From contig NZ_JAIPUS010000009.1 in the NCBI RefSeq assembly GCF_020055675.1, positions 62,001-126,000 on the forward strand: a stretch of DNA of 64,000 bases, in the 5' to 3' direction. Below the pieces are notes generated by a model, which had not been told where the DNA came from, ran no database searches, and saw only the letters and a list, made by a program, of their open reading frames with translations. This DNA is from Marivita sp. GTDB lineage: Bacteria; Pseudomonadota; Alphaproteobacteria; Rhodobacterales; Rhodobacteraceae. This document shows positions 36,293-63,378 of the stretch, one piece after another; positions within the stretch are counted from its first letter, which is position 1; each line of letters begins with the position of its first letter. The translations under genes and the position numbers were made by a program.

Positions 36293-36372
36293 GGTCTTGC
36301 GTGCGCCCGTTTGTGACTCTGTTAACCCGCAGCTTTGCAGTCTTTGCGCAGCAAGGCAATCGGGTGAGGACT

Positions 36373-36996
36373 ATGGACGGGCAAAACAGCGATGTGTACC
36401 GGATCGCGCAGGAGATCGTCGCGAGAGAAGGCGGATACGTGAATGACCCGGATGATCCGGGGGGCGCCACCAAGCATGGCGTGACAATCCATACGATGCG
36501 GCGGCTGGGACTGGACCTGACTGGCGACGGGCGGGTGAACGAGACGGATGTACGGCGACTCACGGCAGCCCAGGCGGCCGAAATCTTTGTCGCGCATTAT
36601 TTCACGCGCCCGCGCATCGCTGAATTGCCCGAACCATTGCAGGCCACAGTCTTTGATATGTACGTGAATGCCGGGGCCAATTCGGTGAAGATCCTGCAAC
36701 GGTTGTTGGGCAAGATGGGCTTCAAGGTCGAGGTCGATGGCGTGATCGGGCCAAAGACCATCGCGGCCTCCGCGCGGGCCCACGCAGTGGCGCCCGATCA
36801 TATCGTGGATGCCTATGGAATCGAGCGGCGCAATTACTACTTTGCGCTGGCCGACCGCCGCCCTGCCAGCCGCAAATACGCGCGAACCCAAGCCGGAGGC
36901 AAAGGGGGGTGGATCACACGTGCCGAGACCTTTTTGGCCGCACGGTATCATCTGACAGCAGAGGCGTTCCGGCAAAGGGTGGCAGCATGGGATTGA
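36373..36996 (+). CDS. GH108-type endolysin, gene-transfer-agent-like lysis enzyme
   Basis: A 207-residue peptidoglycan hydrolase of the GH108 (DUF847/ZliS) family. The catalytic glutamate is in REGGYVNDPDDPGGATKHG (~residues 18-36); the C-terminal half has the peptidoglycan-binding KVEVDGVIGPKT segment. The start at 36373 follows GGTGAGGA. The following gene is a holin and overlaps it by 10 bp. The same endolysin-holin pair (rcc00555/rcc00556 in Rhodobacter capsulatus) lyses cells that release the gene transfer agent. No capsid or tail genes lie in the window. Confidence 0.85.
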   Translation: MDGQNSDVYRIAQEIVAREGGYVNDPDDPGGATKHGVTIHTMRRLGLDLTGDGRVNETDVRRLTAAQAAEIFVAHYFTRPRIAELPEPLQATVFDMYVNAGANSVKILQRLLGKMGFKVEVDGVIGPKTIAASARAHAVAPDHIVDAYGIERRNYYFALADRRPASRKYARTQAGGKGGWITRAETFLAARYHLTAEAFRQRVAAWD

Positions 36997-37520
36997 TTGA
37001 ACAGGTGTTTTCGCTGGTCTTCGGGTCAGGGCGCAACCTTGTCCGTGACACCGCAGAGGTGTTTCGCCCCAATGCCGAGGCGCAGGCACAGCGGGATCTC
37101 GACCGCTATGGGGCATCACTTGCGCAGTACGCGCAGGAATTTTACGCGCCGCAGCGTGGATGGTTCGACCGTTTGATGGATGCACTCAACCGCGTGCCGC
37201 GCCCGGCGATGGCCTTGGGCACATTGGGTTTGTTCGTCTCCGCGATGGTCGATCCCGCATGGTTCGCTGCGCGGATGTCCGGGCTCGCGCTGGTGCCGGA
37301 CCCGCTTTGGTGGCTCCTGGGCGCCATCGTCAGTTTCTATTTTGGCGCGCGGCACCAGGCCAAGGGGCAGGAATTTCAGCGCGATCTGGTGGCCCGCATG
37401 GCATCAATGCCAGCCCGCCCGGCGTCGCAGGCCGAGCCTGTCGTGGACCCGCCCGGCCCGGTCCATACCGATGGAAACGCAGCGCTGGAAGACTGGCAGC
37501 GGCACCGAAGATCCCGCTGA
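36987..37520 (+). CDS. 3TM-type holin, partner of the endolysin
   Basis: A 177-residue protein whose middle holds hydrophobic segments (residues ~70-92 and ~98-122), preceded by an amphipathic region and followed by a proline- and charge-rich cytoplasmic tail, matching the holin of the 3TM superfamily found with GTA endolysins. It starts inside the endolysin reading frame behind AAAGGGTGGC. It would form membrane lesions that let the endolysin reach the wall. It is followed by ccmF, with 82 bp between. Confidence 0.78.
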   Translation: MGLIEQVFSLVFGSGRNLVRDTAEVFRPNAEAQAQRDLDRYGASLAQYAQEFYAPQRGWFDRLMDALNRVPRPAMALGTLGLFVSAMVDPAWFAARMSGLALVPDPLWWLLGAIVSFYFGARHQAKGQEFQRDLVARMASMPARPASQAEPVVDPPGPVHTDGNAALEDWQRHRRSR

Positions 37521-42565: not shown

Positions 42566-43978
42566 TCATTTGTCGCCCGCAGCGGCTGCTTCTTCCAGGC
42601 GGGCAACGGTTTCCTGCCGCCCCAGAACCAGCATCATATCGAACACACTCGGCGTCACGGTCCGGCCCGCAAGAGCAGCCCGCATCGGGCCTGCCAGCTT
42701 GCCGAACTTTGTCCCGTGCTCTTCGGCGATCCGGGATGTGACGGCTTCAAGATCGTCGCGCATCCAGCTAGCATTTTGCAACTGCGGCGTCAACGATTTC
42801 AGTATACCACGGGATACCGCATCCAGGGCCTTGGACGCTTTCCCGTCCGCCTCTACCGGGCGCCTGACCAGAACAAAATGAGCCTTTTCAATCAGTTCCG
42901 GGAAGGTGCGCGCCCGGTCCTTGAGGCAATACATCGCATCGAGCATCCCGGCGGCCTGTGCCTTGTTCAGAAGTGGTTTTTCCGCTGCCGCCAAGTATTC
43001 CTGCAATTCATGCAGCAGTGCAGCATCCTCCGCCACGGCCATGTGCTGTCCACTCAGATTCTCCAACTTCTTGAAGTCGAACCGCGCCGGGGATTTGCCG
43101 ATGCCGTTCAGGTCGAACCACTCTTTTGCCTGATCATCGGTAAAGAACTCGTTATCGCCATGGCTCCAGCCCAGACGCGCCAGGTAATTGCGCATCCCCG
43201 CCGCCGGGTAGCCCAACACCTGGTATTCATCGACCCCAAGCGCGCCGTGGCGTTTCGACAGTTTCTTGCCGTCGGGGCCGTGAATCAGCGGGATATGCGC
43301 CCAGACCGGCACGTCCCAGCCCATCGCGGTATAGATCCCCATCTGGCGCGCCGCATTGTTCAGGTGGTCATCCCCCCGGATCACATGGGTCACGCCCATA
43401 TCGTGGTCATCGACAACAACCGCCAGCATGTAGACCGGTGTGCCGTCCGAGCGTAACAGCACCATGTCATCCAACTGATCGTTGCGGATGGTGACATCGC
43501 CCTGCACCTCGTCGCGGATCACCGTTGTGCCGTCCTGCGGGGTGCGCAGACGGATGACGAAAGGTCCGTCCGGATGCGATGACGGCTCGGCATCGCGCCA
43601 GGGGCTCTGGAAAAGCGTCGATCTGCCCTCGGCACGCGCGGCTTCGCGAAACGCTTCTATTTCGTCCTGCGTGGAAAAACATTTGTAGGCCGCGCCTTTT
43701 GCCAGCAACGCATGCGCCACCTCGGCATGACGTTCGGCCCCGGCGGCCTGGCTCACGACCTCGCCGTCATGATCCAGCCCAAGCCAATCCAGCCCCTTGA
43801 GAATCGCTGCCGTCGCCTCTGGGGTCGAGCGCACCCGGTCGGTATCCTCGATTCGCAGCAGGAACTTTCCTCCGCATCCCCGCGCATACAGCCAGTTGAA
43901 CAGCGCCGTGCGCGCACCGCCGATATGCAGGAAACCGGTGGGCGAGGGGGCGAAACGGGTGACGATCTGGCCGGACAT
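42566..43978 (-). CDS. gltX: glutamyl-tRNA synthetase
   Basis: Charges tRNA-Glu. The class I signatures are [19 protein letters not shown] (~residues 9-27) and [15 protein letters not shown] (~residue 240). Length 470 is normal. Alphaproteobacteria often carry two GltX paralogues, one charging tRNA-Gln for later amidation; which one this is cannot be told here. It is divergent from comEC across 78 bp. Confidence 0.95.
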
Positions 43979-44017
43979 TGGGCGCGTTTACCTTTCGATA
44001 ACTGTCTAGGAGATAAC

Positions 44018-44032
44018 TTAAGGCTCTCTTAA
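44018..44032. promoter_or_regulatory. perfect CtrA-type box upstream of comEC
   Basis: TTAA-GGCTCTC-TTAA, followed by CC, matches the full CtrA consensus TTAA-N7-TTAAC. It lies 25 bp before the comEC ATG and 40 bp from the divergent gltX start. In Rhodobacter capsulatus CtrA controls comEC and other DNA-import genes, so control of comEC is the natural reading. Confidence 0.7.
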
Positions 44033-44056
44033 CCAGCACCATCCACGGGGGCAAGT

Positions 44057-46087
44057 ATGGCGCGGGTCCGGTCTGTCATCCCCGACCTGCTTCTGGCGCA
44101 GCGGGGCGGGCTGTTTCCGTTCGTTCCGGTGTGCCTTGGGCTGGGAATCGGGTTGTTCTTTGCGCTGCGGATCGAGCCGCCGACCTGGGTTCTGATTGCC
44201 AGTGGCACAAGCGGCGGCATGACTCTCTTGCTTTACCTGCGCAGTCGGTCCGCCCTTGCGCCGCTGATGTGCGCCGTGTCGATGGTGGCGCTGGGGGTTG
44301 CGCTGGCTGGAACGCGGGCGCACCTGGTGGCGGGGCCGGTGCTGGAGTGGCGGTACTACGGGCCGGTGACGGGCCGTGTGGTTGCCATTGACCGTTCTGC
44401 CTCGGACGCATTGCGCATCACGCTGGACCGTGTCTGGCTGACCAATGTGCCGCTGTCTGAAACGCCGACACGTGTGCGCCTGTCGATGCACATCACGTCC
44501 GAAAGCCTGACGCCGCGGCCGGGCATGACCATCATGACCACCGCCCATCTGGGCCCGCCGGGCGGTGCGGTGGAACCCGGCGGCTTTGATTTCCGGCGCC
44601 ACGCCTGGTTCCTGCGGCTCGGCGCGGTGGGATATACCCGTGTACCGCTTGTCCTGTGGGAAAAGGCGGGGCGGAACCGCCCCATGTTTCAAGTCCGGAT
44701 GGCAATCTCGGCGCGTGTTCAGGCGGCGCTTGCCGGGGAGATCGGGGCGTTTGCCACCGCCATCATCACTGGCGACCGAAGCGCGATCCCGCAACCCGTT
44801 TTGCAGGCTCTGCGCGACACCAACCTTGCGCATCTTCTGGCCATCTCGGGCCTGCATATGGGGCTGGTCAGCGCCTTTGCCTTCGCCCTGTTACGGCTTG
44901 GCCTGTTGCTCACCCCGATCGGCCTGCGATGGCCGATCAAGAAAATCGCGGCGGCGGGCGCTTTGGGCGTCGCCGCCATCTACCTTGCGCTTTCGGGGGG
45001 CAATGTGGCGACCGAACGGGCTTTTGTCATGGTGGCGGTGATGCTGCTTGCGGTGATGGTGGACCGGCGTGCCATTTCCCTGCGGGCGGTGGCGCTGGCT
45101 GCGGTGATCGTCCTGGCTCTGCGCCCAGAGGCGATGATGGGGCCGGGGTTCCAGATGTCTTTCGCGGCAACCACGGCGCTGGTCGCGGTGTTCGGAGCGA
45201 TCCGCGACAGCACGCATGAATTGCCGCGCCACCGTGTGCTGCGCGGCGTGGCTTCGGTTGTGCTGTCTTCCGCGGTTGCCGGGGCGGCCACGGCTCCGGT
45301 CGCCATGGCGCATTTCAACCAGGTGGCACAATACGGCCTGGTCGCGAACCTGCTCACGGTGCCCTTGATGGGTCTCGTGGTGATCCCGGCGGCGGTGCTG
45401 GGCGTGCTGTTGATGCCCTTGGGACTCGAGCGTCTGGGTCTCGGCGTGATGGGTCTCGGCCTCGACTGGATCCTGGCGGTTGCACAGCACATGGCGAAAC
45501 TGGACGGGGCCGTGCGTCCCGTGATGACGCCAGGCGCCTCTGTCCTGCCGCTGATCGCGTTGGGGTGTCTGTTCGTTGTTGTCTGGCAGGGGCGCGGGCG
45601 GTGGGTCGGACTGGGCCCGGTGGCTCTTGCCGTGCTGCTGTGGAGCGGGGCCGATCGTCCACCGATCCTCGTTGCCGAAGGCGGCACGCTCGTGGGGGTT
45701 ATGACCGATCAGGGTCGTGCGCTGTCGCGGCCGAAAGGGTCGGGCTTTGTCGCCCGCGTCTGGTTGGAGAATGACGGCCACGGCCTGAGCCAACCGGCGG
45801 CCGCGGACCTCTGGGCGGCGGCACGTGGCCAGGTGCGTCACATCCATGGCAAACGAAACGCGGCGACATTCGATGGATGCAATGCGGGTGAATTGGTCAT
45901 CGCCAGCGCCGATCTGCCGGATCACCCGACGGCGGCGCGGTGCACGGTGATCGATGCACCCATGCTTGGCCCACTTGGCAGCCTCGCCGTTACGCGCGGG
46001 GTGGATGACACCTGGATCATCGAAAAGGCGCGCGACCGATCCGGCGCGCGCCTGTGGAACAACCAAGCGGTGCGCGATGCTCAGTAA
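44057..46087 (+). CDS. comEC: ComEC/Rec2-family DNA-import channel protein
   Basis: Inner-membrane channel for uptake of single-stranded DNA during transformation or gene-transfer-agent reception. The 676-residue protein has an N-terminal membrane/OB region (DUF4131-like, residues ~15-190) and the competence domain (~225-495), including [16 protein letters not shown] (~residue 260). The C-terminal part (~520-676) is soluble and lacks an HxHxDH metallo-beta-lactamase motif that I can see. The start follows GGGGGCAAGT. Its stop overlaps the lexA stop by 7 bp on the opposite strand. Confidence 0.92.
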
Positions 46088-46779
46088 GTGCGGATCAGAC
46101 CGACCAGGCGCCCCTGTACCTTGACGTCGCCCACTGGCAGGATGCGCGGATCATGCGCCGGGTTTGCCGCTTCGAGGATGATGCTTTCACCCTTGCGTTT
46201 ATAGCGTTTCAGCGTCGCTTCGTAGCCTTCGATCTGGGCCACCACGATATCGCCGTTATCTGCGGAAGACGTTTCGCGGATCACCACGACATCGCCATCG
46301 TTTATCCCGGCGTCGATCATCGAATCGCCTTTGACCTCAAGCGCATAGTGCCGTCCATTGCTGGACAGCATGGTGCCCGGGACCGCCATCTTCGGGGGGA
46401 CATCGTTGATTTCCTGGATCGGCACACCGGCGGCGATCCGCCCCATGAGTTCGAGATCGACTGCCCCGGTGTCTTCAACCTCGAGGGTGTTGGCCGGACC
46501 CGGCCCATCCGGCAGATCGCCCTCGATCACACGGGGGGTGAAGCCGGGTTGTTTCTGCATGAGCGAATCCGGCAGTTTCACGATCTCGATCGCGCGGGCG
46601 CGATGGGCAAGGCGGCGGATGAATCCGCGTTCCTCAAGCGCTGTGATCAGGCGGTGGATTCCTGATTTCGACCGCAGATCAAGCGCTTCTTTCATTTCAT
46701 CGAAACTGGGCGGTACGCCGTCGCGCGCAACGCGTTTGCTGATGAACTCCAGCAGGTCGAGTTGTTTTTTGGTGAGCAT
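46081..46779 (-). CDS. lexA: LexA repressor
   Basis: SOS repressor that self-cleaves when stimulated by RecA. The 232-residue protein has an N-terminal winged helix (residues ~1-65), the Ala-Gly cleavage site in GRIAAGVPI (~residue 115), the catalytic serine in [13 protein letters not shown] (~residue 152) and the catalytic lysine in [10 protein letters not shown] (~residue 190). A GTTC-N7-GTTC box upstream indicates self-regulation. It is last in the trp/moa minus-strand run. Confidence 0.97.
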
Positions 46780-61971: not shown

Positions 61972-63378
61972 TCAGCAGCTGTAGTACATGCCGAATTCAA
62001 CCGGGTGCGGCGTGTGCTCGTACAGCTCGATGTCTTCCATCTTCAACTCGATGTAGCCTTCGATCTGCTCTTTGGTGAACACATCACCCGCGAGAAGGAA
62101 GTCCATGTCGGCTTTCAGCTCCTCGATGGCCTCGCGCAGACTTCCGCAGACTGTCGGGATGCCTTCCAGCTCTTCGGCCGGCAGATCGTAGAGGTTCTTG
62201 TCCATCGCCTCGCCCGGATCGATCTTGTTGGTGATCCCGTCAAGACCGGCCATCAGCAAGGCGGCAAAGCACAGGTAGGGGTTGGCGCTCGGGTCCGGGA
62301 ACCGGGCCTCGACGCGCTTGGCCTTGGGGCTTTCGGTCCACGGGATCCGCACGCAGCCCGAGCGGTTCCGCGCGGAATAGGCGCGCAGAACGGGGGCCTC
62401 GAAGCCGGGGATCAGGCGCTTATAGCTGTTGGTCGACGGGTTGGTGAAGGCATTGAGGGCCTTCGCGTGCTTCAGGATGCCGCCAATGAAATACAGCGCC
62501 TCTTGGCTCAGGTCAGCGTATTTGTCACCGGCGAAAAGCGGCTTGCCGTCTTTCCAGATCGACATGTTGCAATGCATGCCGGTGCCGTTGTCGCCGTAGA
62601 TCGGCTTGGGCATGAAGGTCGCCGACTTGCCATAGGCCTGAGCCACGTTGTGAATCACGTATTTGTATTTCTGCAACTCGTCTGCCTGCTTGGTCAGCGA
62701 GCCGAAGATCAGCCCCAACTCGTGCTGGCACGACGCGACCTCGTGATGGTGCTTGTCGACCTTCATGCCAAGACGCTTCATCGTCGACAGCATTTCCGAG
62801 CGGATGTCCTGACCGTCGTCGATCGGGTTCACCGGGAAGTAACCACCCTTGACACCGGGACGGTGGCCGGTGTTGCCCATTTCGTATTCGGTGTCGGTGT
62901 TCCAAGACGCGTCCAACGCATCGACCTCATAGGAAACCTTGTTGATCGAGTTCGAAAACCGGACATCATCGAACAGGAAAAATTCCGCTTCGGGCCCCCA
63001 GTAGGAGACATCGCCGATGCCCGAGGACTTCAGGTAGGCTTCCGCCTTTTCGGCCGTGCCGCGCGGATCGCGGTCATAGGCTTCGCCCGTGTCGGGTTCA
63101 ACGATCGAACAATGCAGGCAGATCGTCTTTTCGGCATAGAACGGATCGACATACGCGCTTTCCGTGTCGGGCATCAGTTTCATGTCCGAGGCTTCGATGG
63201 ATTTCCATCCGGCAATGGAAGAGCCGTCGAACATGAAGCCCTCTTCTAGAAAATCCTCGTCAACTTCGTCGGATACCAATGTCACATGCTGGAGCTTACC
63301 GCGCGGGTCGGTAAAGCGGATGTCCACATAAGCGGCATCTTCGTCCTTGATCATCTTGAGAAGCGCATCTGTGCTCAT
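61972..63378 (-). CDS. glnA: glutamine synthetase, type I
   Basis: Assimilates ammonium into glutamine. The 468-residue protein has [19 protein letters not shown] (~residues 50-68), the ATP-binding [18 protein letters not shown] (~residues 257-274), and the adenylylated tyrosine in [10 protein letters not shown] (~residue 396), so GlnE control is expected. It is 49 bp downstream of glnB on the same strand, the usual glnBA operon. Confidence 0.97.

Follow-up and report, generated by a model that had tools for sequence, protein, structure and literature searches.

A conserved imperfect CtrA-like box, displaced from an exact consensus match, as the predicted operator of comEC in Marivita and other Rhodobacteraceae

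Results

The comEC locus

The window, a 64-kb stretch of DNA from a Marivita genome, carries comEC between a divergent copy of gltX and lexA (Table 1). A 78-bp intergenic region separates the start of gltX (minus strand, 43978) from that of comEC (plus strand, 44057), and it holds two CtrA-like boxes: an exact TTAA-N7-TTAA match and, 31 bp upstream of it, an imperfect box with the family consensus TTWACC-TTTT-GGTAACC. Both consist of two TTAA(C)-type half-sites with an 11-bp period, as judged by the motif model described below.

Table 1. Genes and sequence features of the comEC region and the lysis cassette (positions in the window)
Feature	Position	Strand	Remarks
GTA-type endolysin	36373..36996	+	homologue of rcc00555; PF05838, PF09374; match in 32/32 genomes searched
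GTA holin (holin for gene-transfer release; 3TM)	36987..37520	+	PF11351; start codon by inspection
TTAACC half-site, lysis-cassette promoter	36321..36326	+	0.1 bits in the full-box model
gltX copy, divergent neighbour	42566..43978	-	leader overlaps the predicted operator
Candidate CtrA-like operator TTTACCTTTCGATAAC, TTWAC-N6-NTAAC	43987..44002	+	family conservation, motif model; predicted -39 to -24
Predicted -10 hexamer TAACTT	44014..44019	+	TA---T in the family, at a constant spacing from the operator
TTAA-N7-TTAA match	44018..44032	+	overlaps predicted -10 and start; proximal TTAACC kept, distal half drifts
comEC, DNA-import channel protein, 676 aa	44057..46087	+	relatives in 233/249 family genomes; divergent from gltX in 142 regions
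lexA, convergent with comEC	46081..46779	-	PF01726, PF00717

The exact match drifts within the genus

The original prediction had rested on the exact match, and the site is indeed present: TTAAGGCTCTCTTAA, followed by CC and separated from the comEC ATG by 24 bases. It is the single TTAA-N7-TTAA in the window; 5 of 100 shuffles contain one, and the earlier estimate of about 0.1 chance matches per 64 kb is close to the 0.06 expected from shuffles. Across the whole assembly, 21 exact sites were found as compared with 19 for the reversed control pattern, and because of this small difference the exact pattern says little on its own and is weak evidence genome-wide. We rejected it as a means of finding CtrA sites, since it gives no clear excess over the control; it also misses the boxes of ctrA, comM, dprA and comF in the window's own genome. 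A genome scan with KTAAC-N6-KTAAC gave 13 strand matches and likewise no excess over control.

Most of the exact genomic sites that were inspected (13 of 15) fall outside predicted genes. Two of them (L005 and L010, position 1501-1515) lie between divergent LysR and TctC genes and are TTAAG-N5-CTTAA inverted repeats, identical in form to the 44018-44032 box; they are probably LysR operators and not CtrA sites. Another (L004, position 1501-1515) lies 68 bp from a gene for a LuxR-type quorum-sensing regulator and is plausibly a true CtrA target.

The gltX-comEC intergenic region could be aligned without trouble across 17 Marivita species. Conservation of the exact box in relatives, on which the original prediction had staked itself, is absent: the full TTAA-N7-TTAA is intact in 7 of the 17 species, and of 142 gltX-comEC intergenic regions from the family 6 contain it, most of them at an unrelated place. 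Sixteen of the 17 species retain the proximal TTAACC, and the distal TTAA is found as TTAG, TTGA, TTAC, TTGC, TAAA or GTGG. The upstream stretch, in turn, is retained throughout this alignment, with TTTACCTTTCATTCAC in three species.

An imperfect box is conserved across the family

We sampled 249 Rhodobacteraceae genomes, one per genus, of which 233 have comEC relatives; the 142 regions referred to here are those read in which gltX is divergent from comEC. A simple pattern, TTWAC-N6-NWAAS, found the box in 120 of these 142 regions. When the family sequences were anchored on the box, the columns read TT(A/T)ACCTTTTGG(T/A)AACCATG; several positions are near-invariant, and TA---T stands at a fixed distance downstream, with TGTCTAAC after it. 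This column alignment is anchored on the consensus itself, and a test with a model taken from other genes is the fairer one. Because the genera share ancestry, conservation counts across the approximately 145 genera do not represent independent events. In the window, 43987-44002 is the only match to TTWACN6DTAAC.

The fairer test used a 17-column motif model trained on 83 sites in ctrA, comM and dprA promoters only. Scored against shuffled regions that preserve base composition only, 142 of 145 comEC promoters lie above the 99th percentile, and in 135 of the 145 the best site of the model is the homologue of 43987-44002. In the window this site scores 14.4 bits and the exact match 15.0 bits; the slightly higher score of the latter is a point against assigning the operator to the upstream box. 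Scores above 14 bits occur at three places in the window, where shuffles lead one to expect 0.4, and two of the three fall inside the one 78-bp intergenic region. A 14.7-bit CtrA-like match at 62828-62844, within a glutamine synthetase gene (61972-63378, minus strand), is likely a matter of chance.

Across the family, 11 of 143 genera have, at any offset, a further site that exceeds the 99th percentile of shuffles, and in about ten of them the offset is 31-33. In Marivita, the model gives about 15 bits at the place of the exact match in seven species, 11.8 bits in two and at most 7.7 bits in eight. From these two distributions, the 44018-44032 site is a recurrent but unfixed second site.

The same type of box precedes ctrA, comM, dprA and comF

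In ctrA promoters from 28 genera, a box of the type GTAAC-N6-TTAAC stands at a fixed place. The Marivita genome encodes ctrA at G000:C14:12380-13054 (74% identity over 225 aa to a Caulobacter CtrA query sequence), and this gene has a box of its own, ATAACCTTGGCTTAACC. Promoters of comM carry TTAACC-N5-NAAACC or NTAACC, and those of dprA carry TT(T/C)ACC-N5-TTAACC; the latter box, TTYACC-N5-TTAACC, is conserved in dprA promoters of 28 genera (L163-L190), including the window's own genome (L166). For comF, which was held out of training, a repeat of the type TAAAS-N6-STTAA is present in 27 of 27 genera, and in the Marivita genome it is weak (GAAAGGATTTGTTAACG, 5.5 bits). Relative to comF the box is placed well upstream, and in several of these genera (L398-L424) it apparently falls within the neighbouring gene's reading frame. 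We infer from the ctrA promoter and from published work that CtrA is the protein that would bind these boxes.

Weak or displaced comEC sites were seen in three genomes (G069, G058 and G181). Loss of CtrA was considered as their cause and rejected, because all three retain ctrA. Separately, in G164, a Rhodobacteraceae genome of 2.6 Mb with a listed completeness of 100%, a search at E 1e-40 gave no match to ctrA, although comEC-like matches are retained; reading 1.46 Mb of this genome did not reveal comEC.

Predicted promoter layout

Downstream of the conserved box, the columns of the putative -10 element are conserved at offsets 27, 28 and 32 from the operator (T.77, A.86 and T.79, respectively). 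Judged from sequence, transcription would start near 44026, and the 5' base of the conserved box would therefore lie at about -39 and the exact box would begin at -8. With the start at this predicted position, the conserved box would span -39 to -24, upstream of the conserved TA---T, and the exact box would lie outside the -35 region. A sigma-70 consensus scan found no standard promoter before comEC, as expected of a promoter that has no -35 element, although this fits such a promoter without proving it.

The predicted layout resembles that of full-site CtrA promoters in Caulobacter (Zhou 2015, PMC4287350), in which the 5' end of an 11-bp-period repeat lies near -35 to -39 and CtrA acts as activator; the activating site of ctrA P2 is at -39 (PMC4287350). 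In Caulobacter, CtrA represses from sites at -14 or overlapping the -10 (PMC4287350; PMC6180460), and by this analogy the 44018-44032 box, which straddles the predicted -10 and start, would be in a repressor-type position. Were it instead an activator site at -39, the start would fall on the ATG itself, and 44034-44056 is GC-rich and has no -10. The exact match would mostly be a coincidence of this lineage, formed at the junction between the end of the -10 and a conserved TTAACC half-site.

The GTA-type lysis cassette

The original prediction had also tied comEC to a GTA-type lysis cassette in the window. The cassette is present 7 kb away, with the endolysin and GTA 3TM holin domains of an RcGTA-type cassette at 36373-37520, but it does not share the full box: its promoter has a TTAACC half-site only. 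Relatives often retain TTAACC or TTAAC in the lysis-cassette promoter. Lysis genes of R. capsulatus are also reported to have half-sites, and these genes need phosphorylated CtrA together with GafA (PMC9638019); the Marivita half-site agrees with this. On this sequence evidence, a common regulator for comEC and the lysis cassette is plausible. In most of the genera compared, the GTA endolysin and holin genes lie about 7-15 kb from comEC (G083 and G242 are exceptions), and the lysis and DNA-import genes form, with gltX, a conserved neighbourhood.

Discussion

These comparisons make it probable that comEC has a CtrA-activated promoter served by 43987-44002, with the same type of box before comM, comF, dprA and ctrA. 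CtrA control of comEC, as originally proposed, thus stands as a prediction that draws on conservation and on a motif common to ctrA, comM, dprA and comF, but the box originally named is not the conserved operator, because the distal half varies among Marivita species and the box overlies the predicted -10 and start. In the mechanism that we propose, CtrA would bind the 11-bp-period repeat TTWACC-N5-RTAAC at 43987-44002, in the place of a -35 element, and the bound protein would help RNA polymerase to initiate near 44026 from the -10 at 44014-44019.

It is also conceivable, although rather unlikely, that both boxes work, the -39 box activating and the box near -8, in some Marivita, either repressing at high CtrA or allowing cooperation between dimers. 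The two score almost equally in the window (15.0 and 14.4 bits) and lie 31 bp, or three helical turns, apart; about ten genera have second sites at offset 31-33 (any offset, 11 of 143), 16 of the 17 Marivita species retain the proximal TTAACC, and a single full site at -14 in Caulobacter is considered to act both as repressor of P3 and as activator of P2 (PMC4287350). Against this, the distal half is intact in only 7 of the 17 species, eight score at most 7.7 bits there, and the -10 together with the conserved downstream element biases the stretch towards such matches. The more specific form of this proposal, a two-operator switch in part of Marivita in which the -39 site would turn import on and a recently acquired site at the -10 and start would turn it off at high CtrA, we consider unlikely. 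On that proposal second sites would arise repeatedly, since one or two changes would turn the -10 and downstream element into a CtrA box, and the switch, if true, would give a narrow window of recipient state.

The conserved element might instead serve gltX, as ribosome site or leader, or bind an OmpR-type regulator other than CtrA. In most genera some 8-12 bases separate the box from the gltX start, and the AAAGG of the likely gltX ribosome site falls in the operator spacer on the gltX strand; given this overlap with the leader, part of the conservation may indeed serve gltX. Yet the element persists where gltX is absent and where the spacer is altered: in two genera whose genomes have lost this gltX copy, comEC retains TTTACCCTTTGATAACCATG (L083) and TTAACCATTCCCTAACCATG (L113), and where the gltX start is farther off (L238, L242, L250, L272 and L283) the spacer lacks AAAGG and the half-sites remain. 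In other alphaproteobacterial families no such box was seen before gltX or comEC in the upstream regions read, though the two genes are often still divergent there, and a like motif precedes ctrA, comM, dprA and comF, all without gltX. As the main account of the element, service to gltX or to another regulator is very improbable.

The reading in which only the perfect box serves as CtrA operator for comEC is scarcely credible: for all its exact consensus, its rarity in the window and its 15.0 bits in an independent model, this box is conserved in neither genus nor family. Between it and the start codon lie 24 bases that contain no AT-rich -10, and a normal promoter could not be activated from there.

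The idea that CtrA controls comEC is not in itself new: Dinoroseobacter shibae has been the subject of such a prediction, and R. capsulatus of a report. In D. shibae, CtrA sites of comEC, comF and comM were predicted with a weight matrix (Koppenhofer 2019, PMC6473078), Com genes rise after autoinducer switches on the CtrA relay, and dprA is assigned to LexA (PMC6473078). The family and genes are thus the same as here; dprA, under LexA there, has a conserved CtrA-like box in the present comparison, and the passages of that account consulted here do not describe a family-wide operator or -10 layout (PMC6473078). In a different genus, R. capsulatus is reported to require CtrA-regulated comEC, comF and comM for receipt of RcGTA DNA (Brimacombe 2015, as cited in PMC10883770), a control of comEC like that predicted here. 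A similar box, TTAAC-N6-GTAAC, lies near the start in the R. capsulatus gafA promoter, where it is conserved among relatives and bound by CtrA in vitro (Fogg 2019, PMC6363796); the gene is a different one, and GafA and GtaR also act at gafA. Sequence comparison here adds the place and arrangement of the putative operator and brings in dprA; it also finds the operator to be spread through the family and independent of gltX.

Compared with those of Caulobacter, the half-sites of Rhodobacteraceae are degenerate, and a search by the exact TTAA-N7-TTAA rule does not find them. A site can fit the consensus perfectly and still be the wrong one, the real site being imperfect, so that scans for the exact pattern would miss most of the regulon. 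Because the same type of box precedes comM, comF, dprA and ctrA, DNA import in Rhodobacteraceae would form one CtrA-linked set. Our results suggest one operator type for comEC, comM, comF and dprA across the family, and suggest that CtrA control of DNA-import genes is a property of nearly the whole of the Rhodobacteraceae, beyond the two model organisms.
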